A stretch of 21,982 bases of DNA from a virus. A program made the position numbers and the translations under genes. Below the pieces are notes generated by a model that made no database searches, was not told the origin of the DNA, and saw nothing but the letters and a program-made list of their open reading frames with translations. The stretch spans positions 1-21,982 of the IMG/VR virus record IMGVR_UViG_3300030110_000670, one strand, 5' to 3'. Below are positions 3,113-20,499 of this stretch, one piece after another (positions within the stretch are counted from its first letter, which is position 1; each line of letters begins with the position of its first letter).

Positions 3113-4555
3113 CTACACACCTTTGAATAATACAAAGTTGTTAGCTGCTTGAGTTACTAGACATCTTTCTGATAAGAAGTTAACTTCCATAGCATCAAGA
3201 GTAGAAGTATAAGCACCGCCAACAGAACCTGTTAACCATGATTTCATTCTTCTATCATCAGCTTGAGAAGCTCTATATCTTACATGTAAGAAAGGTCTTC
3301 TGATATTTGTTCCAAGAATTTGGTCATAAACAGTTGAAGTTCCTGCAGGTACTAATACACCTTCAATTGAACTTACACCTGTCATAGCACCTCTTGTAGA
3401 AGCATCGTTTAAGTATTTCCAGTCAGTTTTGTAGAAGTCATAAGAACCTCTTCTAAATCCAGAAAAACCTAAATTTAAAGCCATTTCTTCAGAATTTTCA
3501 AATAGACCAAATGCAGTACCACCAGCATATCCACCTGAGATTTGCGCTAGCATATCATCAAAGTCAAGAGCTGTTTGTCTTTGTAAGAAAAGCATGTTTT
3601 CTTCAATTGCACCTTGTGTATCTAAGTTCTTAAGAATAGCATCAAATGAATCGATACCTGCTGAAGCAGTAAAGCCAGTGTTTACATTACCTCTATCTTC
3701 AATAGCAGCAAATAAACCTTGTGTACCTTTAGTAAGCGCTTTAATAGCAGCACCACCGTTAGCACTTAATTCACCTTCAACCATAGACATTTCTAGGTAG
3801 TCTTCAAATCTAAGTCTTGTTTCAGACTCAGCTTTTAAGTACCATAAATATCCAGATGTTCCGTCTTCAGTAGCAACTTCAACCCAGCCAATTTGAGCTG
3901 TATCAGAACCAGACACAACATATTTGCTTCTGATAATGATTGGTGAATTGTTATACTGTTGGAACGCAGGGTCAACACTAATGTATTGATCGCCAGTTAC
4001 AGCACCTGCTGTGTCTGAAGCATTGCTTACAGACTGACCTTTTTGTACGTCAGAACCGTAAACAAAGATCTTACCAGTTGCAGCAAATCCTTGTAAATCA
4101 GCCGCTGTGTAAGGAAGAACGTTTAATACACCTGTAGCAGTATTACTAGCAGATACATAAGCTTTAATTTCTTTACCAGCTGCATCCATAATAACGATAG
4201 TACTCTTAGGAGATACTACGTTTTTTACTGTAGCAGTTACAGTAATTGTAACAGTGTTTACACCTGCACCATTTCCGATAGCAATACCATCATATGCAAT
4301 GTGTAACCTGTTTTGCTCAGACCAAATAACCTGATCGGAAGTCATAGGCATTTCTGCACCTACCATTCTCAAGAATCCTGATAACGTTCTGTTTCCATAA
4401 CGCTCAACTTCTTGTTCGTAGATTTCAGGAAGATACTGTTGCGCAAAATCCGCAAAATTATCTCCAGCCTTATCATTCCACTGTAAATAGTTACTGTTAA
4501 GTAACTCTTGTTTTTGTGATGGGACAATTTTCCCAAATTGTGGAGCTAAACTCAT
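3113..4555 (-). CDS. Major capsid protein (probable)
   Basis: A 480-residue protein following portal and scaffold genes, the canonical place for the major capsid protein. The composition is balanced and the gene is distinctly richer in GC (sampled lines 30-43%) than most neighbours, as often seen in highly expressed virion genes. A helical N-terminus (residues 1-90; FADFAQQYLPEIYEQEVERYG) precedes a Thr/Val/Ala-rich beta segment at about 96-190 that looks like an inserted domain. The C-terminal half contains a segment rich in Phe/Gly/Arg (FGLFENSEEMALNLGFSGF) and ends FVLFKGV. No Shine-Dalgarno sequence; leader is AATTAGAAATG. A strong hairpin terminator follows. HK97 fold is expected from established knowledge of tailed phages, but I cannot verify the fold here. 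I recall a resemblance to crAss-like and marine podovirus capsid proteins. Confidence 0.82.
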   Translation of the reverse strand: MSLAPQFGKIVPSQKQELLNSNYLQWNDKAGDNFADFAQQYLPEIYEQEVERYGNRTLSGFLRMVGAEMPMTSDQVIWSEQNRLHIAYDGIAIGNGAGVNTVTITVTATVKNVVSPKSTIVIMDAAGKEIKAYVSASNTATGVLNVLPYTAADLQGFAATGKIFVYGSDVQKGQSVSNASDTAGAVTGDQYISVDPAFQQYNNSPIIIRSKYVVSGSDTAQIGWVEVATEDGTSGYLWYLKAESETRLRFEDYLEMSMVEGELSANGGAAIKALTKGTQGLFAAIEDRGNVNTGFTASAGIDSFDAILKNLDTQGAIEENMLFLQRQTALDFDDMLAQISGGYAGGTAFGLFENSEEMALNLGFSGFRRGSYDFYKTDWKYLNDASTRGAMTGVSSIEGVLVPAGTSTVYDQILGTNIRRPFLHVRYRASQADDRRMKSWLTGSVGGAYTSTLDAMEVNFLSERCLVTQAANNFVLFKGV

Positions 4556-4566
4556 TTCTAATTGTT

Positions 4567-5766
4567 TTAATTGTTAAATTTTCTTGTTTTTATTCTAAGT
4601 TTTGAAGCATCAGAGCCACTTATTGCTTTAACTTTAATACCACCAACAAAAACATCTCCTGAGCTTTCTTTTCTAGGTTCAGTACTTAAATTTTTAGTTT
4701 TAGCAACTAAATCTTTAGTAGCATCTGCCTTTCCTTGCTCGTAAAAATGTTTTGCAATAGTATCAGAATTTCTAGCCGCATACATGGCTTTGTGGTATCC
4801 CTGTGGATCAACTAACATACCATCTTTGTCTAAGAACGTCTTTACAAAATTTGTAATGTCTATTTGATTTTCCACTATTTCGTTAGGATTTCTTACTCCG
4901 TACCTAAATTTTTTCTCACCTACTTTAAAATCAAAACCTTTGAATTCATCAGTAAAAGTATCTTTAGTTACTTTTTGAAAAACCTCTCTCTGTTGAGATA
5001 GTGTTTTCTGATCTTCGTTGTAACGGTTGAAAAAATCTATAGCTGCTTGCTGATCTTTGTTTACGTTTGATTTCAACTTGATTTCATCGTAATACTTAAT
5101 TTTAAGATCATTTAAATAGCTTTTAGCTTTTCCAACTTCTTCTTTATGCGCGAGCTGTTTCTTTTTAATATCTCGCTCTTCGTCAACATCTTCATTTATT
5201 TTAAAGTTATCTTCTAATAAAAAATTAACTTCTTCATAAGTTAAATGTGGACGAGTATTTTTATAATATTCTCTTAACAACGCTTCGTTATCTATGTTGT
5301 CATAATCAGCGTTTAATCGAACGTAATCCTCAACAGTTCCTCCAGTTTCTTCCATAAATGAAACTAGCTTATCTACATTTTCAGGTAATTGTCTTAATGG
5401 TTGTTCTACTTTTTTAGTTTGTTCAACCTCTTTTTTTACCTCTTTTTCCTTATCTTCTTCTGTTACTGGTATTTCTTCAATAACATTCTCAACGGTGTCT
5501 TCGTGTGTTTGTCCCACTTCTTGCAGTCCCACCTCGGATCCTTCTTCGCGTAACACGCTGCTCTCTGTTTTTTCGTCTTGAATGGCATCTTTATTTTCTT
5601 TTTTTGTTAAATCAATTTTAACAGGTTCATCAGCTTTTTTAACTGCTGCTAAATCAATTTTTACTGTTTCTTCAGGAACACTAAGTTTTTTAGGTATTCT
5701 TTTCTTTTTAACTTTAAAGTCACCTTCCTGTTTAACAGGTTCATTTGTTTTTGTTTTTTCTGACAT
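4567..5766 (-). CDS. Scaffold-like protein between portal and capsid genes
   Basis: A 399-residue, strongly charged protein. Residues 1-130 are low complexity and Lys/Glu-rich, with a repeated VKIDL (ETVKIDL and EPVKIDL). The middle (about 130-270) is helical with coiled-coil character. The C-terminus ends in a basic tail (SKLRIKTRKFNN). An acidic or coiled body with a short basic C-terminal tail, coded between portal and major capsid genes, is the usual picture of podovirus scaffolding proteins, whose basic tail binds the capsid protein. No protease motif was seen, so a protease-scaffold fusion is unlikely. Start ATG carries the 30-base leader shared with the 265-residue gene. Function is inferred from position and composition. 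Confidence 0.7.
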   Translation of the reverse strand: MSEKTKTNEPVKQEGDFKVKKKRIPKKLSVPEETVKIDLAAVKKADEPVKIDLTKKENKDAIQDEKTESSVLREEGSEVGLQEVGQTHEDTVENVIEEIPVTEEDKEKEVKKEVEQTKKVEQPLRQLPENVDKLVSFMEETGGTVEDYVRLNADYDNIDNEALLREYYKNTRPHLTYEEVNFLLEDNFKINEDVDEERDIKKKQLAHKEEVGKAKSYLNDLKIKYYDEIKLKSNVNKDQQAAIDFFNRYNEDQKTLSQQREVFQKVTKDTFTDEFKGFDFKVGEKKFRYGVRNPNEIVENQIDITNFVKTFLDKDGMLVDPQGYHKAMYAARNSDTIAKHFYEQGKADATKDLVAKTKNLSTEPRKESSGDVFVGGIKVKAISGSDASKLRIKTRKFNN

Positions 5767-8213: not shown

Positions 8214-10424
8214 TTATTTTATTATTTTTGAAATATGTCCTTTATTACTGTATTTTTTAAAACCTAAAGGTTTTGGAGTTAATTCTCTTTTAAATATAGG
8301 TTTATACATGTTTTTATTACAACCCATAATAGCTAAACCAGAACTAATAGAAGCATCATGCTTTGTTCTATTGTTTATATCAAATTTAGCCCAATCCTCT
8401 AATGTTTTTTGAAAATAAGTATCACCATATCTTCCACCTAAATTACCAATGTAAGTTTCTATATATGATTCTATAGCGGCAGCATGTGCCTGTTTAATAT
8501 CTTCGCTAGAATTAGGTATACCACCTATTTCTCTTTCAGTTACAGAAAGTTTTATTAACAACTTATCAGGTCTATTCATAGAAAAACCTCTATAACCTCT
8601 TCTTTTAAAATGATACAAAAGTCTAGGTTTGTTATTTTCTGCAAGTATTGGCATACCATAAAACACACAAGCCATTAAAACATCTTCAAAAAATATTTCA
8701 GCAGTTTGAGGTCTTGATATATATTCTAAAAAAAACATATTTGGTGGTACGTTTTCCATAGAAAATTTTGTAAGTCCGTGTAATGCTCCATTTGATCCTC
8801 TTGAATCTACTGTTCCAGATATATCATAAGGATCACATCCAAAACAACCAGTATGTTCATTACCTGGGTATCTTATACCGTTTTTCATTACAACATTGTT
8901 TTGTAGATTTATAGGAGGAACCCATGATATATTAAATCTACCATTGTTGTTTGGCATAAATATAACCTTAGTATCTTTTACACCGTTTTCCCATTGAAAA
9001 GAACCTTTAGTTACCATTTTATAACTTTCACAATCTTCATTAAAATCTATTTGTTCATAAATTTTAACTAGATTAAATAGTGATGACTTTGATTCATCTC
9101 TAAAAGCATGCTGTGTAGTTCTTGGAAATTGTCTATAAAATTCGTTTAAAGCGTTTTGATCTTGCTTTAATCCTTCAACTTCATTTTGCCAGTACTCAAT
9201 AACTCCAATTTCAATTTTGTCTCCTTTGGGCCCAAGTGTGGGGTTGCTAGGTGTGTCGAACACAGGTAATCCATAAGAATCAATGTATCCTTCGTAGTTC
9301 CATTCCATAGGAATGAACAAAGAATAGAGTCCCGAACGAGTCTGTCCGTTGGCGTTTCGTTGCGTAACATTTGAGTCATCGTATAATTTTTTAAAGTTTT
9401 CACCACCTTTATCTAAAGAGTTTGATGTTGAACCCATCATACACTTACCAATAATTCTACTACCTAATCTTAATGTGGTTTTAGTAACCCTCCAGTTGTT
9501 GAGGATGTTGTTTGGCTTTTCCCATTTACCTGATTCATCATGAACGAGAAGTTTGAGTTTCTCTCCATCGTAGGAGTTATCACCTGTGTTTTTCCAGTCG
9601 ATTGTGGTGTCCAAACCTTGTAGCTCCTCGGCTGATTCGTTGGTTTCGAGCTTACGTCTGGTAAATTTACTTGCTGGTACACGGTAGGCAAGTTCGGTCT
9701 TTGGACGGTCCATTCCATCCTGGATAGGTTTGAAAAAGAAGGGATAATTAACCGATATTGGAACCACTTTGTCTGTGAACATTTTCTTTGCATCAGGACC
9801 GGACTTTGATAATACACCATACCTACTGTCTGAGGATATGGTTGCCAAGTTAACCACCTCTCCTGAGGCCATAAACGAAAACCCAGAACGTCTGTTTTTA
9901 AGGTAACACATCCCGTAGCATCGGGTATCTGCTTTGCAAGCTTCCCAGAAAATAAAGAATAATCTATTTGCTTCCCGAAAGTCTGGTGCCCCGACGTCAA
10001 TTTTAGACCACTGCAAGTACATGTAATGAGTACCAGTAATGTAAGTAGGATTTTTTTTATTATAAAACCAAAAACCTTCTTCTCTACGAGTAAACTCTTT
10101 ATCAATGTAATCATACCATTTTTCTTTAAAATCTTCTGGATACTGCCTCCAATCAAAAACAGTTTTTATTTTTGATAATATTTTAGGATATTCAGTTTTT
10201 TCCCATTTATTTTTAGTAAAACTATGTATTTCTTTTTTTTTAGGTAAAGCTATTTTTAAATCTTGTATTTCATAAATATCACCTATTTCACCAGTTTTAC
10301 TAATAACTATAACATCGTGTTCCTTGTTGTAACCATATTTCCACTTTTTGTTTTTATTATTTCTTTTTACAATATGTGGTTTAATATAATTTTCTAGTAT
10401 TTTATATAAAGTTTGAGTATACAT
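8214..10424 (-). CDS. terL: Terminase large subunit (packaging ATPase-nuclease)
   Basis: A 736-residue two-domain DNA-packaging motor. A Walker A-like segment lies at about 176-183 (KNRRSGFSFMASGE; it lacks the classical GxxxxGK[ST], as in several phage terminases that use an Arg/Lys-rich variant). Walker B is LLVHDE at 292-297 with the acidic pair Asp296-Glu297, and the coupling motif is GSTSN at 331-335. The nuclease domain begins near 500; metal-binding candidates are Asp531 and Asp534 (FGCDPYD) and Asp690 (KHDASISSG), typical of the RNase H-like terminase nuclease. The extended N-terminus (1-135) is Lys-rich. The start ATG overlaps the previous stop as TAATG. A GC-rich patch covers residues about 136-415, the ATPase domain, unlike the rest of the gene. 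Confidence 0.92.
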   Translation of the reverse strand: MYTQTLYKILENYIKPHIVKRNNKNKKWKYGYNKEHDVIVISKTGEIGDIYEIQDLKIALPKKKEIHSFTKNKWEKTEYPKILSKIKTVFDWRQYPEDFKEKWYDYIDKEFTRREEGFWFYNKKNPTYITGTHYMYLQWSKIDVGAPDFREANRLFFIFWEACKADTRCYGMCYLKNRRSGFSFMASGEVVNLATISSDSRYGVLSKSGPDAKKMFTDKVVPISVNYPFFFKPIQDGMDRPKTELAYRVPASKFTRRKLETNESAEELQGLDTTIDWKNTGDNSYDGEKLKLLVHDESGKWEKPNNILNNWRVTKTTLRLGSRIIGKCMMGSTSNSLDKGGENFKKLYDDSNVTQRNANGQTRSGLYSLFIPMEWNYEGYIDSYGLPVFDTPSNPTLGPKGDKIEIGVIEYWQNEVEGLKQDQNALNEFYRQFPRTTQHAFRDESKSSLFNLVKIYEQIDFNEDCESYKMVTKGSFQWENGVKDTKVIFMPNNNGRFNISWVPPINLQNNVVMKNGIRYPGNEHTGCFGCDPYDISGTVDSRGSNGALHGLTKFSMENVPPNMFFLEYISRPQTAEIFFEDVLMACVFYGMPILAENNKPRLLYHFKRRGYRGFSMNRPDKLLIKLSVTEREIGGIPNSSEDIKQAHAAAIESYIETYIGNLGGRYGDTYFQKTLEDWAKFDINNRTKHDASISSGLAIMGCNKNMYKPIFKRELTPKPLGFKKYSNKGHISKIIK
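9181..10020. other. GC-rich patch inside terL (ATPase domain)
   Basis: Counting GC in 60-base rows gives about 42% over these 840 bases (351 of 840), against 28% in the row before (9121-9180), 25% in the row after (10021-10080) and 20-23% in rows 9001 and 10201. A short dip to about 31% lies at 9361-9480. Codon choice changes with it: the ILNNW segment uses ATC, CTC and AAC codons rare elsewhere in the window. The patch corresponds to residues about 136-415 of the terminase. Confidence 0.8.
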
Positions 10425-10702
10425 TATTTAGATCTTCCTTCTGCAAAACCTTTAAAAGTTTTATCTTTTTTAACTTCTTCTTTAGGTTTATCTTCTAACA
10501 TATTTTTTTCTTCTTCAATACGATTAAGTATTTCAAAAGCATCAAATATAGCTAGCTTTTTAGTAGCAGCTGCGTTTTTTAATCTATCAGCTGTTATATC
10601 ATCTCCACTGTCTACTATTGGTTCTTTAGCAACTTTAATTAGCTCTTCAACCGCGACTTGCCCAGCTTGGATTATACTCTTCTTGGTCTCCTTTGTTTTC
10701 AT
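10424..10702 (-). CDS. Small protein before terL; possible terminase small subunit
   Basis: A 92-residue, highly charged, mostly helical protein (MKTKETKKSIIQAGQVAVEELI, then ADRLKNAAATKKLAIFDAFEILNRIEEEKNML). Its stop overlaps the terL start (TAATG), and it overlaps the upstream gene by 56 bases, so its start may be internal to that gene; the ATG at 10700-10702 is the first Met of the frame. Genes for terminase small subunits usually sit here and encode DNA-binding helical proteins, but this one is shorter than most and no helix-turn-helix is obvious. I recall similar proteins before terL in uncultured marine phages. Terminase small subunit is therefore a guess from position. Confidence 0.55.
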   Translation of the reverse strand: MKTKETKKSIIQAGQVAVEELIKVAKEPIVDSGDDITADRLKNAAATKKLAIFDAFEILNRIEEEKNMLEDKPKEEVKKDKTFKGFAEGRSK

Positions 10703-11252
10703 ACTTAATTACAATATCATTAGATTTCATACAGTATAAACGTTCGTTTTCTATAATAAATTCCCATTCACCATAGGGAGTGTAACCAATTAAGTCTCCT
10801 GGGTGTATTTCTTTACTCTCTAACGAACTATTACCATATTTTAATACCCCTATAAGTTTTTGTTCTTTTTCACCGCTTAAAATTGAATTATTTTTTAATG
10901 GCTTTACAAAACACCTATCATTAAAACTTTTCCAAGTTTCATTGTTTTTATATAAATATATTTGATCAGGTTGACAAAAGTACATGTTGTCTTTAAACCA
11001 AGATCTACTTTTTTTTTGTTTACCTTTAGTATCGTAAAAAATTCTAAAAACATTTTGATGAATCACTACTGTGTCTCCTACAGATATTCCAGTATAATAA
11101 GCTAATGGACATGCTTTAACTATAGCCTGTCTATTAACAAATTTAAAACTTTCTACTTTAGTATTTAAAATTAGTTTTTTATCTTTTACTTGAACAACAT
11201 TATTATATGTTTCACCCAGGGGTTCTACGATAAAATCATATAAACTTTTCAT
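10647..11252 (-). CDS. Tandem GroES-like (double co-chaperonin domain) protein
   Basis: A 201-residue protein that I read as two GroES-like folds. Domain 1 (about 5-103): FIVEPL strand, a loop with the hydrophobic tripeptide LIL (27-29), RQAIVKACP, VGDTVVIHQNVFRIF, and YFCQPDQIYLYKN. Domain 2 (about 109-186): DRCFVKPL, a shorter loop, LIGVLKYGN, PGDLIGYTPYGEWEF, and LYCMKSNDIVIKYEN. Each follows the order of E. coli GroES (DRVIVKR; IVL mobile loop; GEVLAVGNG; VGDIVIFNDGYG; VLIMSESDILAIVE). The two halves also align with each other. Chloroplast Cpn20 is the known precedent for tandem GroES domains. The gene overlaps its neighbours on both sides, between small unknown proteins and the terminase, and far from the groEL/groES cassette. 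It may aid capsid or terminase folding, or may use the fold structurally. Confidence 0.68.
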   Translation of the reverse strand: MKSLYDFIVEPLGETYNNVVQVKDKKLILNTKVESFKFVNRQAIVKACPLAYYTGISVGDTVVIHQNVFRIFYDTKGKQKKSRSWFKDNMYFCQPDQIYLYKNNETWKSFNDRCFVKPLKNNSILSGEKEQKLIGVLKYGNSSLESKEIHPGDLIGYTPYGEWEFIIENERLYCMKSNDIVIKYENKGDQEEYNPSWASRG

Positions 11253-11479
11253 TAGTACTCTAAATCATACTCAACAGATATAGCCATGTTAGAATTAAAT
11301 TTTTTCCATGCAAGTACCTCGTTGTTTTTCTTTATATAAATATTATAAGAATTATCTTCAGGTTCTAAAATAATATAAGATATTATATGGCCACCATACA
11401 CTTGCTGTCCAACAGCATAGTGCATAGCGTCATTTTTATAATCAGAACCAATACTTATTTTTCTAATATTACTTGTCAC
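11252..11479 (-). CDS. Small unknown phage protein
   Basis: A 75-residue protein (MTSNIRKISIGSDYKNDAMHYAVGQQVYGG and onward) with beta-strand character and a C-terminal VEYDLEY. Its stop overlaps the start of the tandem GroES-like gene (TAATG) and its start overlaps the coiled-coil gene by 11 bases, so the three are translated as a unit. I recall small proteins with KISIGPDYK-type beginnings in many marine phage genomes, always without known function. No enzymatic motif, membrane segment or signal peptide is visible. Confidence 0.6.
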   Translation of the reverse strand: MTSNIRKISIGSDYKNDAMHYAVGQQVYGGHIISYIILEPEDNSYNIYIKKNNEVLAWKKFNSNMAISVEYDLEY

Positions 11480-11726
11480 CTTCTTTTTCCTCTTCTATAT
11501 TAGAATAAGTACCATCAGATAAATTAATGTTTATTTTTCCATACTCATCTTCTAGTTCTTTTTTAGTTTCTTCAATAACTTTAGACAAGTCATTAATTTT
11601 TTGGTGCACATTATGTTTTTGAACATCTAAAACACCTAGTGATCTTAGCATGTCACTAAGTTCAACTTGTTGTTTATTTATTTTTTCTAACTGTTCTTCA
11701 GTAATTTTTTTAACTTCTTTACTCAT
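11469..11726 (-). CDS. Small coiled-coil protein
   Basis: An 85-residue acidic protein. Two predicted helices (about 5-30 and 38-64) around a short turn near LGVLDVQKH have heptad-like Leu/Ile/Val spacing, suggesting a helical hairpin or coiled coil. A short beta segment (YGKININLSDGTY) follows and the tail is Glu-rich. The ATG is preceded by an AATTT-type leader similar to that of groEL. It overlaps the next gene by 11 bases. The shape superficially resembles prefoldin or tail-chaperone coiled coils, and it lies upstream of the tandem GroES-like gene, but no family can be assigned. Confidence 0.58.
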   Translation of the reverse strand: MSKEVKKITEEQLEKINKQQVELSDMLRSLGVLDVQKHNVHQKINDLSKVIEETKKELEDEYGKININLSDGTYSNIEEEKEGDK

Positions 11727-12364: not shown

Positions 12365-12823
12365 TTATTTTTGTTTAAATATGTTACTTGCTTTTTCTGT
12401 TGTGCGTCCACCAAAATAGGCTAAGACGACTGACATCATTATTTTTTCGAAAGTATCATTCCATAATTCATTTATATGAAACGGTAGCGTTTCTATACTG
12501 TCTAAAATTCCTGCCATTGAAAATATAACAATACACCATACTAATACTAGTGGGCGTACATTTTTACTTAGCCATGAATCAGACATAGAATCTGCTTTCC
12601 ATCTTGACGTAATAGCTTCTATTTCCTTATTCTGTTGTTCAAATATAATTTGTTGTAATTTAACTTTATCATCCGCAGGTGCATCTGATTTAGTTATAGC
12701 TTCAATAGCTTCTCTTGGTGATGTAACACCTTGTAATACGTTTCCTAATGTAGGGTTGATTACAGAAGCTGCGCCAAATAATAATTGACCAACAGTTGTA
12801 TCTTTAAATTTCTTTTTTGACAT
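12365..12823 (-). CDS. Holin of the GTA 3TM type
   Basis: A 152-residue protein with an amphipathic N-terminus (LLFGAASVINPTLGNVLQGV), a charged middle (KLQQIIFEQQNKEIEAITSRWKADSM in two parts), then SWLSKNVRPLVL leading into a hydrophobic segment at about 91-108 and a second at about 127-138 before YFGGRTTEK (136-144). The W-x-x-D-x-x-S-D-S-W-L-x-x-x-x-R-P region and the terminal YFGGR-x-x-E-K signature are those of the holin superfamily first named from gene transfer agents (Pfam family GTA_holin_3TM). It would permeabilise the inner membrane at the end of infection. No endolysin is recognisable in the window. No Shine-Dalgarno sequence precedes the ATG. Confidence 0.8.
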   Translation of the reverse strand: MSKKKFKDTTVGQLLFGAASVINPTLGNVLQGVTSPREAIEAITKSDAPADDKVKLQQIIFEQQNKEIEAITSRWKADSMSDSWLSKNVRPLVLVWCIVIFSMAGILDSIETLPFHINELWNDTFEKIMMSVVLAYFGGRTTEKASNIFKQK

Positions 12824-12852
12824 TTTTTATAATCACTTAATTTACAGTGTTT

Positions 12853-14262
12853 TTACTTTTTCTTTTTTGATGCGTTTATTACCATAGGTTTTGTGCCTGA
12901 GCCTATTCCTCCACCTGCATCATGAATATTATAAAACTCTTGCATAAATTCTATATCTTCTTCTGGTATATAATCTCTATATTCATCAGGTGTAAAATAA
13001 AAACGATCATATAGTTTTAAACCACCACCACCTAAAGCTTTAGCACCTCTATTTAATAATTGTGCTCTTTGATAAGCTCTAGGATCAATGTTATCATCAG
13101 GGTTTTCACCCCACTTATCCTTATAACCTCCGCGGCCATGTACTTGGAAATCCCACACATCTTGTATACCTGCATAAGGTAAGTTATTGTCTGTGCTTAA
13201 TCCAGCAGCCATAGCGCCATAATCTACACCCAGCATATTACTTACCGCACCACTTTCTTTACCACTACCATAAAATGTTTTACCTTTATATAAATCACTA
13301 AAAGCATTGTTTAAGTTATTTTTATTTGCAACACCTTCAAAACGCAGGTTTGATTTTTCGTCAGACTGAACTATGTTTGATTCATCAGCATAATTTTGTA
13401 TATACTCAGGTGTTTGCGTCATTATGTAATCTATAAAATAAGGCATATTTTGCCTACGAGTTCTATTAGCAAACTTATTATAAGTTTTATCCCATTCTTC
13501 ATCTGAAGCATCTAGTGGTACTTGAGTAGAATACATCTCCGCCGCTTCATCTTTTTGGTTTAAACCTTTATCAAAATCATCACCTTTAACACTATAGCTG
13601 TCTTTAATCCAAGGGTATTTTTCTGATTTAGCTGTATAAGGAGAAGGTTTTAAACGCGGATCTATTTCACCTAAAAAAGCTTTGTTTATATTTAAAGGTT
13701 CTGGTCTCCATTGAGTCCACTCAGCACCTCTATATTCTTCATGAGGATCCAGTGAACGCTCATCATCATTATCTCCAGTATTAAGTAAATTCTTCCCAAA
13801 ATACTTATTTATTGCTTCGTTGATATTAAAAGCACCTGCACCTCCACCAGAAGCTTGCATAGCTAAATCCATAACATTTCTTGAAAAATCTGGAAACTTC
13901 TTTGTTAAATAATCAGTTATACCAGGATTATTATATGCAATTTGCATAACTTTATCTAAAACACCGACATCTCCAGGATTATTTTTTTCCCATTCACGAA
14001 GTTGTTTGTTTAAATTTGGATTTATATTAATACTAGCATTATATTCTTCTGGATTTCTAGGATCTGGTAATTTACTTATATCTTGTAATGTAGCTTTTTG
14101 ACCCTTGTTTAATACATCTGAATATATTGGACGCGAAGGGTTTCGTGAATCTAAGTCATGATCTTGTTTTAAAGGAGATATTACTCTACCATCACGACCT
14201 AATGTTCTTTGACTGTTGGTTGTGTGTTTATTTGTAAAAGGATTTTTTACTTTAAAAGCCAT
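12853..14262 (-). CDS. Unknown 469-aa protein with MAFKxKNP N-terminus
   Basis: A polar, probably partly disordered protein. It begins MAFKVKNPF and carries SPLKQ at about 29-33, a start shared with the next gene upstream (MAFKLKNPL, then TPLKQ). It is rich in Asn, Asp, Tyr and Gly, with a Gly-rich patch near 136-143 (ASGGGAGAF), another near 408-415 (KALGGGGLK), and ends in a basic tail ASKKKK. No catalytic motif was seen. Its start overlaps the previous stop (TAATG). The company of two HExxH proteins with the same N-terminal peptide suggests a joint role, perhaps as internal or minor virion proteins, but this is inference. Confidence 0.55.
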   Translation of the reverse strand: MAFKVKNPFTNKHTTNSQRTLGRDGRVISPLKQDHDLDSRNPSRPIYSDVLNKGQKATLQDISKLPDPRNPEEYNASININPNLNKQLREWEKNNPGDVGVLDKVMQIAYNNPGITDYLTKKFPDFSRNVMDLAMQASGGGAGAFNINEAINKYFGKNLLNTGDNDDERSLDPHEEYRGAEWTQWRPEPLNINKAFLGEIDPRLKPSPYTAKSEKYPWIKDSYSVKGDDFDKGLNQKDEAAEMYSTQVPLDASDEEWDKTYNKFANRTRRQNMPYFIDYIMTQTPEYIQNYADESNIVQSDEKSNLRFEGVANKNNLNNAFSDLYKGKTFYGSGKESGAVSNMLGVDYGAMAAGLSTDNNLPYAGIQDVWDFQVHGRGGYKDKWGENPDDNIDPRAYQRAQLLNRGAKALGGGGLKLYDRFYFTPDEYRDYIPEEDIEFMQEFYNIHDAGGGIGSGTKPMVINASKKKK

Positions 14263-15458
14263 TATGAATACATTTGTTTATTTTGTTCTATATCACCTAA
14301 CATCTCTTTACCTGATAATTGATTCCATTTAGTAATACCTGGAGTTTTTTGTTCTTTACTAGCCATTGTATTAATAGCTTCTAAAAGTTTTTCTGGGTCA
14401 TAATAAAACATAGAATCATTTGAATGTAAGTCTTTATCCTGCATCCATTTTTTTAACGTAGGCATATTAATTTGATCCCCATATTCTAAACCCGCTTTAT
14501 CAAAAGCTCTTATTCTAAAATCTTGAAAATTAGCATGACCTTCAACTCCACTTCTCAAATACTCTGTTAAATCTCTATTATCACTACCAGGCCCCTCTGT
14601 TGGTCTTACAGGTTCTCCCAGTGTTCTATTAAAGTATGGTGTACCCATTTCATCAGCACCACTTGCGTGCAGCATTTCATGCTCTATTATACTTGGATCA
14701 TTACCGGAAACAGTTATTGTACCTCCTCCTTGATCAATATTGTGATGGTACCTAGGCGCACTATATCTACCTGCATCAAGCATAGAGCTCTTCTTTTTTA
14801 TGTTTGTATGTAAAGCCGTATTTTTAATAGCCTCTAAATCTCTATTGTCTACTTTTTCTCCTGTTCCAAAATACCATTGCTCAAGTGCTCTTTTTTGAAA
14901 TTCTGGATCTTCAAACCTTTGTGCAAAATTTTGTTTAGCTTTTTGAGAGATTTCTGCAAAAGCATCAGCATTATACTCTCCTGTAGGATTTATAGGATCA
15001 TACAAGTCTTCAGGTGTTTCCAAGTCATAGTTTAAACCTCTATATTCTGCGTTGCTAGCTGTATCCATTCCACCAACAAGAAATTTAGGATTTCCATCTT
15101 TATCATACTCTGAGCTTATTATTTTTTTACTCCCTTCAATAGGTTTAAAATCTTCATCACGCTTACTGTTCCAGAAATATTTTGTAGATGCTGGGTATCT
15201 GGTACCCATAATATTTGTTACGGGTTGAAAAGTTGGATCTTCTTTTTTATTATAAGGATCTTTTTTAGTGTAACGTGATCTTATTAATTCCTTTTTCACG
15301 TTAGGATCTTCTGTAAACGGACCTATAAATGGATTACGTACATCATCTATAATTACAGTTTCATTAGGATCTATTGGTGGAGCTGGTTGAGGTCCAAACT
15401 GTTCTTGATGATTTTGTTTTAATGGTGTTTTTAAAGGGTTTTTTAATTTAAAAGCCAC
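14262..15458 (-). CDS. Putative zinc metallopeptidase (HExxH), MAFKxKNP N-terminus
   Basis: A 398-residue protein with HEMLHASG at 260-267: His260 and His264 are zinc ligands and Glu261 the catalytic base of the HExxH metallopeptidase pattern. A downstream acidic ligand is expected; Glu306 in the SGVEGHANF segment is a candidate, about 42 residues beyond His264, a spacing seen in gluzincins. The first 250 residues are polar and probably flexible. The start is GTG (CAC at 15456-15458 on the plus strand), overlapping the TAG of the gene before it by one base; the reading MAFKLKNPL from this GTG matches the sibling proteins and confirms the start. It may process virion proteins or act on the cell envelope; substrate unknown. 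Confidence 0.65.
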   Translation of the reverse strand: MAFKLKNPLKTPLKQNHQEQFGPQPAPPIDPNETVIIDDVRNPFIGPFTEDPNVKKELIRSRYTKKDPYNKKEDPTFQPVTNIMGTRYPASTKYFWNSKRDEDFKPIEGSKKIISSEYDKDGNPKFLVGGMDTASNAEYRGLNYDLETPEDLYDPINPTGEYNADAFAEISQKAKQNFAQRFEDPEFQKRALEQWYFGTGEKVDNRDLEAIKNTALHTNIKKKSSMLDAGRYSAPRYHHNIDQGGGTITVSGNDPSIIEHEMLHASGADEMGTPYFNRTLGEPVRPTEGPGSDNRDLTEYLRSGVEGHANFQDFRIRAFDKAGLEYGDQINMPTLKKWMQDKDLHSNDSMFYYDPEKLLEAINTMASKEQKTPGITKWNQLSGKEMLGDIEQNKQMYS

Positions 15459-15820
15459 TATGAATTATTATAAGCTTTTTGCTCCCATTTAAATCCTGGC
15501 CAACCTTCAGGTTTCCATTCACCTTCATACTTTATTTTACCGTCTTTACGAGCATATGATTTTCCATCATATATTAATTCATTATCATTGTAGTCTAAAC
15601 CTTTAGCGCCATCTGATGCTCTATAATCTTTTATATCTTGTAAATGAATTAACTCGTGGTTAATAGTATCTTCTTGTTGAGCTGGAGACATTTCTCTATC
15701 AACTAATATACTACCATTTTTTGTGGCAACACCTAATGTTCCTTCTTCCATCTCCATGTTGTATATAGGTGTGTTTAATGTACACGTGCAATAAGGTGCA
15801 CCTTTCATTTTAAATGCCAT
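15458..15820 (-). CDS. Small putative zinc metallopeptidase (HExxH), MAFKxK N-terminus
   Basis: A 120-residue protein starting MAFKMKGAPYCTC. It contains INHELIHLQD, with His55, Glu56 and His59 forming an HExxH zinc site. A Glu in the C-terminal KWEQKAY (Glu113) could be the third ligand. The body before the site (GTLGVATKNGSILVDREMS) reads as a beta-hairpin edge typical of compact minigluzincins. Similar short HExxH proteins recur, to my memory, in uncultured marine phages. A two-Cys CTC motif at 11-13 is unexplained. The stop overlaps the GTG of the next peptidase gene. Alone it would be a minimal peptidase or an inactive zinc-binding module; both remain possible. Confidence 0.62.
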   Translation of the reverse strand: MAFKMKGAPYCTCTLNTPIYNMEMEEGTLGVATKNGSILVDREMSPAQQEDTINHELIHLQDIKDYRASDGAKGLDYNDNELIYDGKSYARKDGKIKYEGEWKPEGWPGFKWEQKAYNNS

Positions 15821-15836
15821 AATATTTTTTTATAAC

Positions 15837-15858
15837 AGCCCCGGTAAAAACCGGAGCT
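15837..15858 (-). terminator. Hairpin after the His-rich gene
   Basis: On the minus strand: AGCTCCGGT TTTT ACCGGGGCT, a 9-bp stem with one G-U pair and a four-T loop, just after the stop of the His-rich gene. What follows (GTTATAAAAAAATATT) lacks a clear U-tract, so it could be a weak terminator or an mRNA-processing/stability hairpin ahead of the metallopeptidase operon. Confidence 0.55.
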
Positions 15859-15875
15859 TATTATTTTAAAGAATC

Positions 15876-16442
15876 CTATTTATGTCCTGGACCACAATGT
15901 CTAAGCATCGAAGGTCTACCACCTAATTTAGGTGCTACACCATGATTTTTTCCATGCTCTTTAGCAGGGTGAGATACATTACCTTTCATGTAATCTCTAT
16001 GTGTTGCAGATTGATCTTCGTGAGATGAACCGCTATGCCCATGATAACCTTTGTCAGTACCTTTATAGTTTGCATAATCTATATGAGTAGCTGATTGATC
16101 ACGTTTCATGGATCCATGTTTTTTAACTGGATAATCCAATTTTTTATTTGGTACGTCAAAACCTAAACTTCCATCTTTATCTCCAACATATGATTTACCT
16201 GTAAGATTCATGTCATCACTTAATACCGGATTTGACAAGTCTTCACTCATCATTGCTGGGTGCGGGTGCGCATGAGAACCTTTATCTGTGTCATAATTTT
16301 TAGCTGGATGATGAGTTTCATCATTTTCTAAATAATGTAATCTAGCAGAAGCTGTAAGATCTTTATCGTGTGCCATCTTAGCGTCGTAATGCTCTTCTTG
16401 TCTTTTTGAAAAACGAGGATGGTTTCCTGAATAATTTCCCAT
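15876..16442 (-). CDS. His-rich repetitive protein with MGNY start
   Basis: A 188-residue hydrophilic protein in which about 20 residues are His (around 11%). Internal repeats are visible: DQSATHIDY at 115-123 and DQSATHRDY at 143-151, HPAK at 45-48 and 158-161, TDKG at 52-55 and 129-132, and SHAHPHP at 56-62. It ends with LRHCGPGHK, related in style to PLQHCG in the protein at 17565-18254. No membrane or catalytic domain is seen, so it is probably disordered. His clusters may bind zinc or other metals, which is interesting beside the two zinc peptidases. N-terminal MGNY matches the protein at 11759-12352. Function unknown. Confidence 0.58.
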   Translation of the reverse strand: MGNYSGNHPRFSKRQEEHYDAKMAHDKDLTASARLHYLENDETHHPAKNYDTDKGSHAHPHPAMMSEDLSNPVLSDDMNLTGKSYVGDKDGSLGFDVPNKKLDYPVKKHGSMKRDQSATHIDYANYKGTDKGYHGHSGSSHEDQSATHRDYMKGNVSHPAKEHGKNHGVAPKLGGRPSMLRHCGPGHK

Positions 16443-16461
16443 TTTTTTAGTTTTAATAAAA

Positions 16462-16483
16462 CCCTGCTAGAAAACTAACAGGG
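16462..16483 (-). terminator. Intrinsic terminator after the 97-aa gene
   Basis: On the minus strand: CCCTGTTAG TTTT CTAGCAGGG followed immediately by TTTTATT. The 9-bp stem has one mismatch, and the T-run follows as expected of a Rho-independent terminator. It lies 22 bases after the stop codon of the 97-residue gene. Confidence 0.82.
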
Positions 16484-16504
16484 AATTATGATTAATAATT
16501 TAAG

Positions 16505-16798
16505 TTAAGCTACAACGATTGCAGTTACTTTTACACCTGTAGTATTTTGTACGATTGACATAATACCGCCTGGGTTAGCAGTAACAGCTGAAATAAATTG
16601 ATCAGCCCACTCTTTACCTTTTCCAGTAGTTGTGAATAAATAACTTTTTCCAGAGTCAGTATAAACTGTCCACTTGTTAGCGTCGCCGCCTCCGTTTGCC
16701 AATCCTTGGAATACAGATACAACGCCACCAATTAAAACGTCTGATGTTTGGTTAGCAACATTTACGTCTGCTGCTTTAATTTTAATGTAATTTGCCAT
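16505..16798 (-). CDS. Small GC-richer probable virion protein
   Basis: A 97-residue protein (MANYIKIKAADVNVANQTSD) rich in Val, Ala, Gly and Thr, with a probable all-beta first half and a small helical stretch at about 63-75. Its GC content (42-50% in sampled rows) is far above that of its neighbours and resembles the capsid gene, suggesting high expression. It stands alone between a repeated leader at 16799-16865 and a strong terminator at 16462-16483, so it may be an independent high-level transcription unit. A capsid decoration protein or other abundant virion component is the best guess. The second frame inside it (16531-16731) is a shadow. Confidence 0.65.
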   Translation of the reverse strand: MANYIKIKAADVNVANQTSDVLIGGVVSVFQGLANGGGDANKWTVYTDSGKSYLFTTTGKGKEWADQFISAVTANPGGIMSIVQNTTGVKVTAIVVA

Positions 16799-16865
16799 AA
16801 TTTTTGTGTTAATGTTTGTGTTAATGTTAAATGTTAATGTTGAGTTTTATACAGCTCTCTTACTG
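16799..16865 (-). promoter_or_regulatory. Repetitive leader of the 97-aa gene
   Basis: The 67-base spacer holds a 12-bp tandem repeat, TTTGTGTTAATG at 16803-16814 and 16815-16826 on the plus strand, followed by TTAAATGTTAATG. On the minus strand this reads as repeated CATTAACA units ending AACACAAAAATTATG at the start codon. A TATAAA lies farther upstream on that strand. No Shine-Dalgarno sequence. It is a probable expression leader; promoter assignment is weak. Confidence 0.4.
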
Positions 16866-17078
16866 TTATCCTTTTGCAAGTTGAGTTATAGGTCCTGCTT
16901 TATACGAACAAGGAGCTTTTAATACTTCTTTACCGTATATACCTGAACTTAAACCTTCACCATGAGGTCTACCTACTTGATCTAGTGGACCATCCCATAT
17001 ATGAGATTCACCTACTATACCAACTTTACTTCCTGGTTTTAATTTTTCCATTGCTGGATCATATTTTTTATGATTCAT
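16866..17078 (-). CDS. Small unknown protein
   Basis: A 70-residue protein (MNHKKYDPAMEKLKPGSKVG) that is Gly- and Pro-rich, with VGIVGESHIWDGPL and SYKAGPITQLAKG. Its start follows AACACAAAAATTATG, the leader shared with the genes at 16505-16798 and 11759-12352. The gap to the previous gene is only 10 bases, filled entirely by this leader motif. No recognisable domain; it may be a minor virion protein by association with its neighbours. Confidence 0.5.
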   Translation of the reverse strand: MNHKKYDPAMEKLKPGSKVGIVGESHIWDGPLDQVGRPHGEGLSSGIYGKEVLKAPCSYKAGPITQLAKG

Positions 17079-17088
17079 AATTTTTGTG

Positions 17089-17565
17089 TTAAACTGGTTT
17101 GTATAATTGTTCTAATTTATTTTGAGGTTGCTCTACACTTGACATTACCTCGTTTATTACTTCATTTTTAAACTCTGACTTATTAGCAGGATTTATTTCT
17201 GATGAAAAAGTGTTAACAGATTCTTTTGCTTGATTAACATTTTCTACTAAAGGTTTGCCTGAATTTATAGCATTTTGTTGCATAACTCCTTTCGATGCAT
17301 TCCCTAATAATTTATTTCCTTGCATACTTAATCCAGAAAGATTTAAAGTATCATTTGATCCTTGATTCCAATGCGTATTATTTGGTAAATATGTTGGAAC
17401 AAAAGCGTTTGGATTTTGCGCTGATTGAGAAGTTCTATCCATGTTGCCAGATAAAAAACTTTCAGGAGTAGCAAATTGTTGATAATTTGTATTGTTTAAA
17501 AAACTTTCATGAGGAAGCATTTTTACTGGAGGTACTTTGTACGATATTTTTCTTCTTCTTGCCAT
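17089..17565 (-). CDS. Unknown Asn/Gln/Ser-rich protein
   Basis: A 158-residue low-complexity protein with a basic start (MARRRKISYKVPPVK) and a body dominated by Asn, Ser and Gln (FATPESFLSGNMDRTSQSAQ and similar). The repeats HESFL and PESFL are visible. No catalytic or membrane motif was found. Its start overlaps the preceding stop (TAATG) and it belongs to the run of small disordered proteins between the chaperonin cassette and the terminator at 16462-16483. Function unknown; an internal or minor virion protein is possible. Confidence 0.5.
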   Translation of the reverse strand: MARRRKISYKVPPVKMLPHESFLNNTNYQQFATPESFLSGNMDRTSQSAQNPNAFVPTYLPNNTHWNQGSNDTLNLSGLSMQGNKLLGNASKGVMQQNAINSGKPLVENVNQAKESVNTFSSEINPANKSEFKNEVINEVMSSVEQPQNKLEQLYKPV

Positions 17566-18254
17566 TATAACCAGTTTTTAGGGTTTATTTTATCTATTAT
17601 ATTTCCTCCTGCTCTAGCATTTTGATTGTCTTGGAAATTTTTCATTTTTTTTCTTAATCTCGCCTCTTTAGCAGTCTTACCTTTATCTACAGCATCATCT
17701 ATTCTTGCTTGTATAGATTTTTCATTTCTTTTATTAAATCCAAATTTGTTTTTATGTTCACCCGTATCTTTCTTTAAATTTTCATCGTCCATAAAGCTAT
17801 ATGGATTTATAGTATTAGAGTTATCATTAGCGTTAGAAGACGTGGTTGATTGAGGATTTGAATAACTACCAGAATTAAAATTTTGAATATTTGGAGATGG
17901 AAGGTTAACACTTGAACCCATGCTAGAACTTCCGGCAGGAACATTTCCATGATAACTTTTACTAGTTGGATTTAATTGATTTTTAATTTGATTAATAACA
18001 TCCATAGCATTGTAAGCAGCTTTTGATGCACCGATAGATATGTTTTTAACTGGATGCGATCTAAGTTTTTCAGCCTTGTTATAACTAACATCATTACCTA
18101 CAGTACCAGGACTATTCATGGAACGCATTTTATTCCAACCACCTGAATGCATCATATCACTACCACAGTGTTGCAATGGATGCGGCATTGCTCTATCTTC
18201 TGCATTGCCAAACATTTTTAATGCTGCATCTATTTCTTTATTTTTAAAACCCAT
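17565..18254 (-). CDS. Unknown disordered protein with MGFK start
   Basis: A 229-residue protein, polar throughout. It starts MGFKNKEIDAALKMFG, similar in form to the MAFKxK proteins, and contains PHPLQHCG at about 25-32, comparable to LRHCGPG of the His-rich protein. The centre is Ser/Asn-rich (about 103-147) and the C-terminus is a charged helix (RNEKSIQARIDDAVDKGKTA) followed by a basic patch. It sits immediately after the winged-helix-like gene with a one-base gap. No domain identified; probably an unstructured virion or morphogenesis protein. Confidence 0.52.
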   Translation of the reverse strand: MGFKNKEIDAALKMFGNAEDRAMPHPLQHCGSDMMHSGGWNKMRSMNSPGTVGNDVSYNKAEKLRSHPVKNISIGASKAAYNAMDVINQIKNQLNPTSKSYHGNVPAGSSSMGSSVNLPSPNIQNFNSGSYSNPQSTTSSNANDNSNTINPYSFMDDENLKKDTGEHKNKFGFNKRNEKSIQARIDDAVDKGKTAKEARLRKKMKNFQDNQNARAGGNIIDKINPKNWL

Positions 18255-18255
18255 T

Positions 18256-18702
18256 TTATCTATTTTTATCTGTATTAACGTTATATATAGAAGTTCTTAA
18301 AACTTTATTACTATATGTATTTTTTCTCATTATAATGTTTCTTCTTTCACTAGTTGGTATATCTTCATGACCTAACATTATTTTGTAAATTTTATTTATA
18401 AGTCTTCTGCATTTAAAAGAAGTTTTATAAATATTATACTTTTGTGTAGTTCTATTTCTTTTTCTCCATACATTTATCCATTCTTCTTTAATCAATTTGT
18501 TCCATCTTTTTTTATTCCAACTATAAGAATATGAACCTTTTTTAAAATCACTTATTTTAAATAAACTAATACAATCTAAGTATATTAATAATTCTAAGTC
18601 AGCATCATTTAAGCCGTTGTTCTTACAAGCCCATTTGCGTATTATACGGTAATGTTTAAGTAGATTTAGATTTTTTAAATCATCTACGTCTAGCCTTTTC
18701 AT
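18256..18702 (-). CDS. Basic winged-helix-like protein, possible DNA-binding regulator
   Basis: A 148-residue strongly basic protein (many Lys, Arg). The order of elements suggests a MarR-like winged helix: DADLELLIYLDCISLFKISDF (helices), SWNKKRWNKLIKEEWINVW (recognition helix and first wing strand), RKRNRTTQKYNIYKTSF (wing) and RRLINKIYKIMLG (C-terminal helix). The tail (SERRNIIMRKNTYSNK) is basic. Its start overlaps the groES stop by four bases (ATGA), so it is translated together with the chaperonins. It could be a late-gene regulator or a DNA-packaging accessory (small-terminase-like) protein. I recall comparable proteins in marine phages without a proven function. Confidence 0.55.
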   Translation of the reverse strand: MKRLDVDDLKNLNLLKHYRIIRKWACKNNGLNDADLELLIYLDCISLFKISDFKKGSYSYSWNKKRWNKLIKEEWINVWRKRNRTTQKYNIYKTSFKCRRLINKIYKIMLGHEDIPTSERRNIIMRKNTYSNKVLRTSIYNVNTDKNR

Positions 18703-18962
18703 AAAACAACGACAACATCTTGTGATTTTATAACATGATATGTAGTATCTTCAACTTCAATTTTATGACCTGCGTGTCTATCAAAATAAATAACATCATT
18801 TTTATTTAACCCATTTATTTCGTCACCTACAGATAATATTTTAGCTTTAGTATACCTAACATCTTCTTTGTGTTTTTCAGCAAGTAACAAACCACCTTTT
18901 GTTTTAGTAGTTCCTTGTTTAGCTTTTTCTATTATTAAATTTCTACCTATTGCCTTCATCAA
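18699..18962 (-). CDS. groES: Co-chaperonin GroES
   Basis: An 87-residue GroES: IGRNLIIEKAK (first strand), the mobile loop TTKTKGGLLLAEKHKEDVR with hydrophobic tripeptide LLL at 25-27 that contacts GroEL, AKILSVGDE (dome-base strand), LNKNDVIYFDRHAGHKIEV, and the closing VIKSQDVVVVL. Length is close to bacterial GroES (about 97) but the N-terminal and roof parts are shortened. It would cap the GroEL ring with ATP. Start ATG lies within the groEL 3' end (20-base overlap), and its stop overlaps the next gene by ATGA. A second GroES-like protein lies at 10647-11252. Confidence 0.9.
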   Translation of the reverse strand: MMKAIGRNLIIEKAKQGTTKTKGGLLLAEKHKEDVRYTKAKILSVGDEINGLNKNDVIYFDRHAGHKIEVEDTTYHVIKSQDVVVVL

Positions 18963-20499
18963 TTCTTAAATTATTAATTACACAATCTGTAGATAAAATA
19001 GTAGTAGCTACTGAAGCTGCGTTTTTTAACGCACTTTTAGTTACTAGTAAAGGATCTATAATTCCAGCATCAACCATATGTACAATCTCTCCATTTAATA
19101 CATTTGTTCCATATCCATCTTTAGCTGGTAACATTATTTCTTCTACACCAGCATTTAATAAAATAATTTTATATGGAGAAATTATTGAAGCTGTTAATAT
19201 TTTTTCACCTTTATTTTTTTCATCTACTCTCATAGCTGCGTTTAATAAAGCTACTCCACCACCCGGCACAATACCTTCTTTTATCGCAGCTTTAGTTGCA
19301 CAAATAGCGTCTTCTGCTCTGTCAAGTTTTTCTTTTAACTCTACTTCAGAATTAGCACCTATTTTTACAACAGCTATTTTAGCAGCTAACCTTGCTAGTC
19401 TTTTTTCTAAACTTATAAGTTTTTCAGGAATCTTACAAGTTTTTAATTCTTTTTTTAATTCTTTAATTATAGATAAAGTTTCAGGTTTTGTTTCTTGAAT
19501 TTGTATTATTGTTTCATCAAAACTTGTAATACTTTTAGAACAACTTCCTAAAAAGTTAATATCTATAGTTTCCATGTTATCTCCTAAGTCTTCATTTATA
19601 ACAACAGAATTAGTTAATAAAGCAATATCATCTAATATTTGTTTTCTATTTATTCCTAAAACCGGAGCATCAATCACGTTAACCTTTATATTACCTTTAG
19701 TTTTATTCATAGCTAGTGCTGTTAAAACTTCAGGTTCTAAATCACCTATAATTAAAAGTGGTTTTTTATTTTTAATTACATATTCTAGTACACTTTGTAT
19801 TTGTCTAATACTAGATATTTGAGAATCAATAATAAGAACAGCTGGGTTATCTAATTCAGCTGTCTTTTTTTCTTTATTAGTTATAAAATGAGGACTAGTA
19901 ATTCCTTTTGGATATTGAGCTCCATCTATAATTTCTACTTTTGTTTCTCCAGATTCTGAAACTTCCATCATAACTACACCTGTTTTGTCTACTTCTCTAA
20001 AAGCATCAGCAATTAATTTTCCTAAAACATTATCATTATTTGTAGATATAGTAGCTACATTATCCAGCATTTTATCTTGTACTGGTATAGATACAGTGTC
20101 TAAATATTTTAAAACTTTTTCAACAGCTGTGTTTATACCTTCTTTTATTTCTCTTACATTTTGTTTATCTAAAACACTGTAAGCTTGTTTAAGTATAGCG
20201 TGTGCTAATACTGTTGCGGTTGTTGTACCATCTCCAGCTTCTTGTACGGTTTTTTTAGCTGCTTGTTTTAAAAGAGTTGCACCCATGTTTTCAACAGGAT
20301 CTCTTAATATTATATTTTCAGCAACAGTAACTCCGTCTTTTGTAATAATAGGATTACCTCCAGCATCTTCAAGTATTACACATTTACCGCTAGCCCCAAG
20401 AGTGGAGCTAACAGCATTTGTGAGTTTTTCAATACCTTCAAATATTTTTGTCTTAGCTTCGTCACCAAAGTTAAGATTTTTAACTATCATATTTGACAT
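18943..20499 (-). CDS. groEL: Chaperonin GroEL (HSP60), phage-encoded
   Basis: A 518-residue HSP60. The nucleotide site is preserved: AGDGTTTATVLAH at 88-100, catalytic Asp397 in AEDAICATKAA (E. coli Asp398), and PGGGVALLNA at 412-421. The equatorial, intermediate and apical domains are all present, and the KPLLIIGDLEPEVLTAL segment is typical of the apical domain. Unusual: the apical substrate/GroES face differs from E. coli (GYLSPYF becomes GITSPHF at 199-205; the conserved APGFGDRRK becomes APVLGINRK at 278-286), and the C-terminal Gly-Gly-Met tail is absent, ending CVINNLRIDEGNR. The protein folds phage and perhaps host proteins with ATP. Leader is an AATTT pentamer run. groES overlaps its end. 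Confidence 0.95.
   Translation of the reverse strand: MSNMIVKNLNFGDEAKTKIFEGIEKLTNAVSSTLGASGKCVILEDAGGNPIITKDGVTVAENIILRDPVENMGATLLKQAAKKTVQEAGDGTTTATVLAHAILKQAYSVLDKQNVREIKEGINTAVEKVLKYLDTVSIPVQDKMLDNVATISTNNDNVLGKLIADAFREVDKTGVVMMEVSESGETKVEIIDGAQYPKGITSPHFITNKEKKTAELDNPAVLIIDSQISSIRQIQSVLEYVIKNKKPLLIIGDLEPEVLTALAMNKTKGNIKVNVIDAPVLGINRKQILDDIALLTNSVVINEDLGDNMETIDINFLGSCSKSITSFDETIIQIQETKPETLSIIKELKKELKTCKIPEKLISLEKRLARLAAKIAVVKIGANSEVELKEKLDRAEDAICATKAAIKEGIVPGGGVALLNAAMRVDEKNKGEKILTASIISPYKIILLNAGVEEIMLPAKDGYGTNVLNGEIVHMVDAGIIDPLLVTKSALKNAASVATTILSTDCVINNLRIDEGNR

Follow-up and report, generated by a model that had tools for sequence, protein, structure and literature searches.

The window, i.e., the whole analysed stretch of 21,982 nucleotides, is an IMG/VR fragment encoding a terminase large subunit (TerL), a portal, a major-capsid-type structural protein, GroEL, and GroES (Table 1). 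Three adjacent genes on the minus strand, named here genes 1, 2, and 3, have one base in common between each neighbouring pair and begin with MAFKxK-type peptides, as the first-pass annotation had described. With a fourth gene they share the start M-A/G-F-K/R-x-K, and in two of them a second element, [ST]PLKQ, is present. The relatedness of the fourth gene, previously a matter of appearance, is supported by its orthologs, which start MAFKNN (L097), MAFKNK (L225), and MSFNNK (L098) and continue, in L097 and L225, with PHPL[KL]HCGSDMMHS (PHPLKHCG or PHPLLHCG). The PLKQ noticed earlier in two proteins belongs to genes 2 and 3 (in the latter MAFKVKNPF...ISPLKQ), and [ST]PLKQ proved to be the stronger of the two elements and the more widespread. 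Between genes 2 and 3 the N-terminus is the sole match (E 0.007), with no homology of bodies. The DNA upstream of the three genes has nothing in common. Inside the scaffold-like gene, an MPFKTK ORF resembles the tag, but it was set aside as a different thing.

Table 1. Features of the window (strand and description where assigned)
Feature	Position	Strand	Description
Gene 1	15458..15820	-	120 aa; MAFKMKGAPY...NTPIY tag; HELIH; predicted small HExxH/E gluzincin-like metallopeptidase
Gene 2	14262..15458	-	398 aa; GTG start; tag MAFKLKNPLKTPLKQNH; HEMLH
Gene 3	12853..14262	-	469 aa; MAFKVKNPF-(linker)-QRTLGRDGRVISPLKQ; body of unknown function
Fourth member	17565..18254	-	229 aa; MGFKNK...PHPLQHCGSDMMHS; ortholog-supported
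Hypervariable late cassette	12365..18254	-	bounded by the 18256-18702 gene and a holin-like gene
Cassette-boundary gene	18256..18702	-	conserved; KHYRIIRKWACKNN family; ortholog of phi40:1 gp78
His-rich protein	15876-16442	-	HPAK repeats; conserved LHYLENDE block; hypervariable in relatives
70-aa family	16866-17078	-	VGESHIWDGPLD...GPIT core; clade-specific
Coiled-coil-like late protein	11469..11726	-	85 aa; near TerL
cpn10-like protein	10647-11252	-	adjoins TerL; second to GroES
TerL	8214..10424	-	phrog_6681, E 4.7e-164; clade marker; untagged
Scaffold-like gene	4567-5766		contains the 41-aa ORF
41-aa ORF	5463-5588	-	MPFKTKKQRAACYAKKDPRWDCKKWDKHTKTPLRMLLKKYQ; +1 frame within the scaffold-like gene
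Major-capsid-type virion structural protein	3113..4555	-	phrog_13704, E 1.6e-89; untagged
GroES	18699-18962		
Phage GroEL	18943..20499	-	adjoins the cassette; untagged

The HExxH motif, attributed to two of the three proteins, is found in genes 1 and 2 only. Among 60 homologs of gene 1, residues F3, H55, E56, H59, and E113 are invariant, and M1, P9, and P18 are at least 90% conserved. In the AF2 model of this protein (pLDDT 89), residues 1-18 have lower confidence and no secondary structure. The fold matches IrrE/PprI and minigluzincins weakly (best PDB match E 0.048), comparison of the window protein with curated families gave M78 below the cut-off of 22 (12.9 bits, E 0.099), and the best match reached by any of its homologs, DUF6782, was also below the Pfam cut-off (E 0.00098). 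These sequence features indicate that gene 1 encodes a conserved gluzincin-like metallopeptidase; it has HExxH and a distal Glu likewise to the minigluzincin/IrrE-PprI/DUF6782 metallopeptidases, although the family and fold matches are weak, and differs from them by the additional N-terminal tag. For gene 2, the description as an HExxH protein holds in the window but not throughout its family, in which the E and the last H are kept and the first H not always (GEEISH in L097, TEELTH in L132). Its layout comprises the tag, a disordered linker, and a C-terminal metallopeptidase-like domain; in the model (mean pLDDT 49) the N-terminal 160 residues are disordered and the core is poorly modelled. 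For genes 2 and 3, phage isolates yielded no direct homologs. The PHROG/Pfam names of tagged proteins are nearly all unknown, DUF6321 being the only one assigned.

With a genome of ~60-70 kb, the phage is podovirus-type and related to Elemovirus and Callevirus. The closest deposited genome by TerL is MW202828 (64%), followed by Flavobacterium elemo phages (45%), with Maribacter phage Panino and Cellulophaga phages also near; the long relatives are contigs of 61-67 kb. The tail module of one of these, the clade member G043, contains a crAss-type muzzle domain (PF25731, E 8.2e-9), crAss_MUZ and crAss_MUZ_C being found among its late proteins (fetched as L233-L236). The tag-bearing clade consists of uncultured marine Bacteroidota phages. 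Its TerL was also seen in MAG bins (L249-L267) labelled Woesearchaeota, Desulfobacteraceae, Aliivibrio, Maricaulis, or Pelagibacter; Bacteroidota bins are frequent among them too, and the odd labels likely reflect binning contamination. Two further observations concern the relatives: the cpn10-like gene is present in all six flavobacterial-type relatives examined, and the 41-aa ORF, a candidate overlapping gene, is conserved there in seven distinct versions.

Recurrence of the N-terminal peptide on unrelated bodies

Loci of the clade were gathered via TerL (80) and via the small HExxH protein (80), giving 159 loci, and proteins were clustered on residues 31 onward. Cassette genes were defined as those between the 18256-18702 family or chaperonin genes and holin or TerL; they form 145 mutually unrelated clusters, for each of which one representative was counted. 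Gene starts were simple ATG calls, the loci are partly fragments, in which cassette bounds are approximate, and some contigs are present twice, a duplication that family weighting takes out of the statistics. In residues 1-40 of the 145 representatives, 54 occurrences of the motif [STN]P[LFIVM][KNHRQ] were counted, compared with a mean of 4.4 and a maximum of 12 in 500 shuffles; 53 of them begin within residues 1-30 and almost none beyond. Looser clustering gave 38.6/116 vs. 3.6 by shuffle, and the reversed motif was found 3 times. The motif was picked after inspection of the data, which the shuffle and reversed-motif controls and the blind scan described below address. Starts of the type M[AGS]F[KR]x[KRNQ], weighted by family, amount to 12.9/145 in the cassette vs. 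0.0/81 elsewhere.

Across all loci, 166 distinct proteins with MAFK-type starts (e.g., MAFKMKGSPMQRNFGIGVSPIKQ, MAFKMKGSPLQVRKTKEGAALKRWF, and MAFKMKGAPYKKGISPACKTAAK) group into 43 body clusters that show no detectable similarity among themselves, although two or three of these (L163, L081) seem to be truncated genes or wrongly called starts instead of tags. The loss of similarity in relatives, which the first-pass annotation had named as evidence against its idea, was observed neither in sister phages nor in the clade nor in the blind scan. The small HExxH gene is the most frequent tagged gene. The number of tagged genes per genome reaches about ten; in G073, four MAFKMK genes and a tagged HExxH gene lie inside 6 kb. 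The 70-aa family also has an SPLK tag at the start of some members (e.g., MKKSPLKMLEDK in L007). The median pI is 9.45 for tagged bodies vs. 5.19 for other same-strand clusters; basic charge was nevertheless rejected as a tag-specific feature, the untagged cassette proteins being nearly as basic (p = 0.16). No mention of MAFKMK was found in the literature searched.

Tags confined to a single clade and to late accessory genes

The tag occurs in a single clade and there in late genes only, and core and non-virion late proteins are without it. When the 2.9 million viral contigs of the whole IMG/VR set were scanned blind with a DNA pattern for MAFKMKG[SA]P, 56 stretches matched, and all 45 records checked encode the clade TerL (72-93% identity); the same pattern had zero matches in 84,980 prokaryote genomes. 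TerL relatives with no more than 71% identity (the MAG contigs L258, L259, L261, L262, and L267) are without the tag, two motif matches in L267 being rejected as tags because they belong to a core family. Seven tagless relatives, including crAss001, gave 5/325 genes by the same broad definition, i.e., background, and the tag is absent from the isolates with virion proteomics. It is a simple sequence marker of the clade. In four near-complete contigs, the tag is borne by 19 of the 171 TerL-strand genes, as against none of 123 on the opposite strand (p = 3.5e-5), and no tag was found on TerL, portal, capsid, GroEL, GroES, holin, or endolysin genes. The restriction to the late strand, together with the untagged core, points to a label of accessory proteins and not to a general feature of late genes.

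The tagged genes of relatives cluster in the hypervariable late cassette. In the relative phi40:1, gp77 and gp80, which lie close on either side of gp78, are MS/MS-confirmed virion proteins, and in the region corresponding to the cassette gp69, gp77, and gp80 are small proteins, structural by MS/MS annotation. Most clade homologs of gp80 are without the tag, only that of L254 starting MKGSPIK, so they were dropped as proof of tagged virion proteins and the tag is not a requirement of every virion protein. A proposed relationship of gp77 to the family at 16505-16798 was likewise discarded (phmmer E 0.002 to one member, with no support from hhalign). The 85-aa coiled-coil-like protein is encoded by 76 of the 85 clade loci (about 90%) with at least 2.5 kb upstream of TerL and was not found in any of seven tagless relatives; from this distribution one may speculate that it is a candidate reader of the tag.

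Selection on the peptide and its proposed function

It is the peptide that is under selection. Among the Ser codons of the SP element, TCN is used in 39 families and AGY in 10, and all four Ala codons occur at position 2; this variation of synonymous codons indicates selection at the peptide level. The gene trio is syntenic in the closest relatives, where the gene 2 tag is identical at 14/17 (L097) to 16/17 (L227) positions, i.e., 82-94%, whereas identity in its C-terminal body is ~33% and no alignment is obtained for residues 18-173. The better conservation of the tag than of the body in these sister phages argues for constraint on the tag. In gene 3, the elements are kept in L097, L225, L227, and L182, with the whole protein 33-41% identical there; L195 has the diverged tag MIKIKNPF...NSPVKQ. 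The elements are separated by a few residues in gene 2 and by about 18 in gene 3, and this variable spacing suggests that they behave as two separate pieces joined by a flexible spacer. Families of the DUF6321 and KGKGRNF types, which in the clade start MAYKQSPFF or MAYVQ..SPLLR, also exist in pelagiphages and cyanophages; with most of those phages the match does not begin until about residues 10 to 33, the tag staying outside.

We consider it probable, at roughly 60%, that the tag is a virion-loading (cargo) sorting peptide carried by exchangeable late accessory proteins. According to this proposal, the tag would be a short unstructured peptide of two elements, M-[A/G/S]-[F/Y]-[K/R]-x-[K/R/N] followed, at a distance of 3 to ~20 residues, by [S/T]-P-[L/F/I/V]-[K/N/H/R]-[Q/H/N], which the clade would attach to exchangeable, often basic late accessory proteins, metallopeptidases included. 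A capsid-, scaffold-, or portal-side component would bind the tag during assembly, and the tagged proteins would thereby be loaded as virion cargo, with delivery together with DNA being possible. The virion location, the binding to an assembly component, and the injection of tagged proteins are what we infer. The preference for virion loading is based on indirect grounds, i.e., the precedent of the T4 capsid-targeting sequence (CTS), the crAss001 cargo, and the MS/MS-detected phi40:1 proteins of the corresponding region. A broader version is more tentative and, in our opinion, possible rather than probable: a modular loading code of the clade's own, read by a clade-specific assembly factor, may turn almost any late protein into injected cargo, while the phages exchange a rapidly changing set of proteins that act on the host, some of them metallopeptidases, under an invariable label. 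Should the tag indeed load virions, injected cargo could be recognised from N-termini alone in widespread uncultured marine Bacteroidota phages, and dozens of family-less proteins would become candidate early-infection proteins.

Other functions of the tag have to be weighed against this. It might dock late proteins to another phage partner (GroEL/GroES, an assembly site, or the envelope) and not to the virion, in line with the tags being on the late strand only and with the cassette adjoining phage GroEL/GroES in the clade. We regard this as unlikely: GroEL is present too in tagless relatives (elemoF, MW202828, Panino), the tag is without signal peptide or membrane segment, and the core proteins that would need folding help are untagged. 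The tag might also be a propeptide or a maturation-protease site removed during assembly, possibly by the small HExxH protein, which bears the tag itself and is encoded by the most frequent of the tagged genes; T4 and giant phages do apply prohead proteases to packaged proteins. Yet in L010 the cassette is complete and four of its genes are tagged, but an HExxH gene is missing, which led us to reject the HExxH protein as a general reader or processor of the tag, and no prohead protease family was detected among the 48 late proteins of G043. We consider this reading improbable too; it would be compatible with loading.

Explanations that deny the peptide a function fare worse. The hypervariable cassette, with its evident gene exchange, and the close similarity of the tags within the single genome G073 could suggest a functionless remnant, i.e., a 5' gene segment spread among late genes by recombination. 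The constraint on the gene 2 tag in sister phages speaks against it, as does a motif that is degenerate yet position-specific on many unrelated bodies, making such an origin very unlikely. A nucleotide-level signal of late genes (translation start context), with the peptide as a by-product, would agree with the position of the tag at the start codon and with its A/T-rich codons, but it is already largely refuted by the synonymous variation in Ser and Ala codons, by upstream DNA that is not common, by a second element that begins anywhere between residues 3 and 33, and by TerL, MCP, and other late genes without the tag.

Comparison with known systems

Encapsulin cargo-loading peptides are short tags on unrelated cargo that dock inside an HK97-type shell of bacterial nanocompartments. 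In this the clade tag, as proposed, would resemble them, but they are usually C-terminal. The giant phages phiKZ/SPN3US have many diverse packaged and ejected head proteins with cleaved propeptides; those of SPN3US are cut by the phage prohead protease gp245, whereas none was detected among the late proteins of G043. The virion of crAss001, a podovirus-type phage of Bacteroidota, holds megadaltons of cargo (PMC10172136). This cargo, however, is made up of large proteins few in number (gp45-gp50), and the clade tag is absent from the first three.

The internal proteins of T4 are highly diverse and have only a conserved CTS in common, and this CTS packages foreign proteins too (PMC3012670). As with the T4 CTS, a short conserved N-terminal peptide stands in the clade on diverse, otherwise unrelated late accessory proteins. 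The differences are a two-element motif with S/T-P-L-K, another lineage and genome size, and the number of tagged genes per genome. The TerL and MCP relatives are Elemovirus/Callevirus-type podoviruses, outside the T4-like phage lineage, and we know of no sequence resemblance between the T4 CTS and the clade tag. Of the targeting idea in the first-pass annotation, the common N-terminal address on unrelated late accessory proteins is strongly supported, and packaging in the capsid and injection stay putative. With the different lineage, and no prohead protease found among the 48 late proteins of G043, the clade tag would work like the CTS without being a member of the T4 system. If it loads virions, the tag would be an independent counterpart of the CTS and a transferable means of placing proteins inside phage heads.
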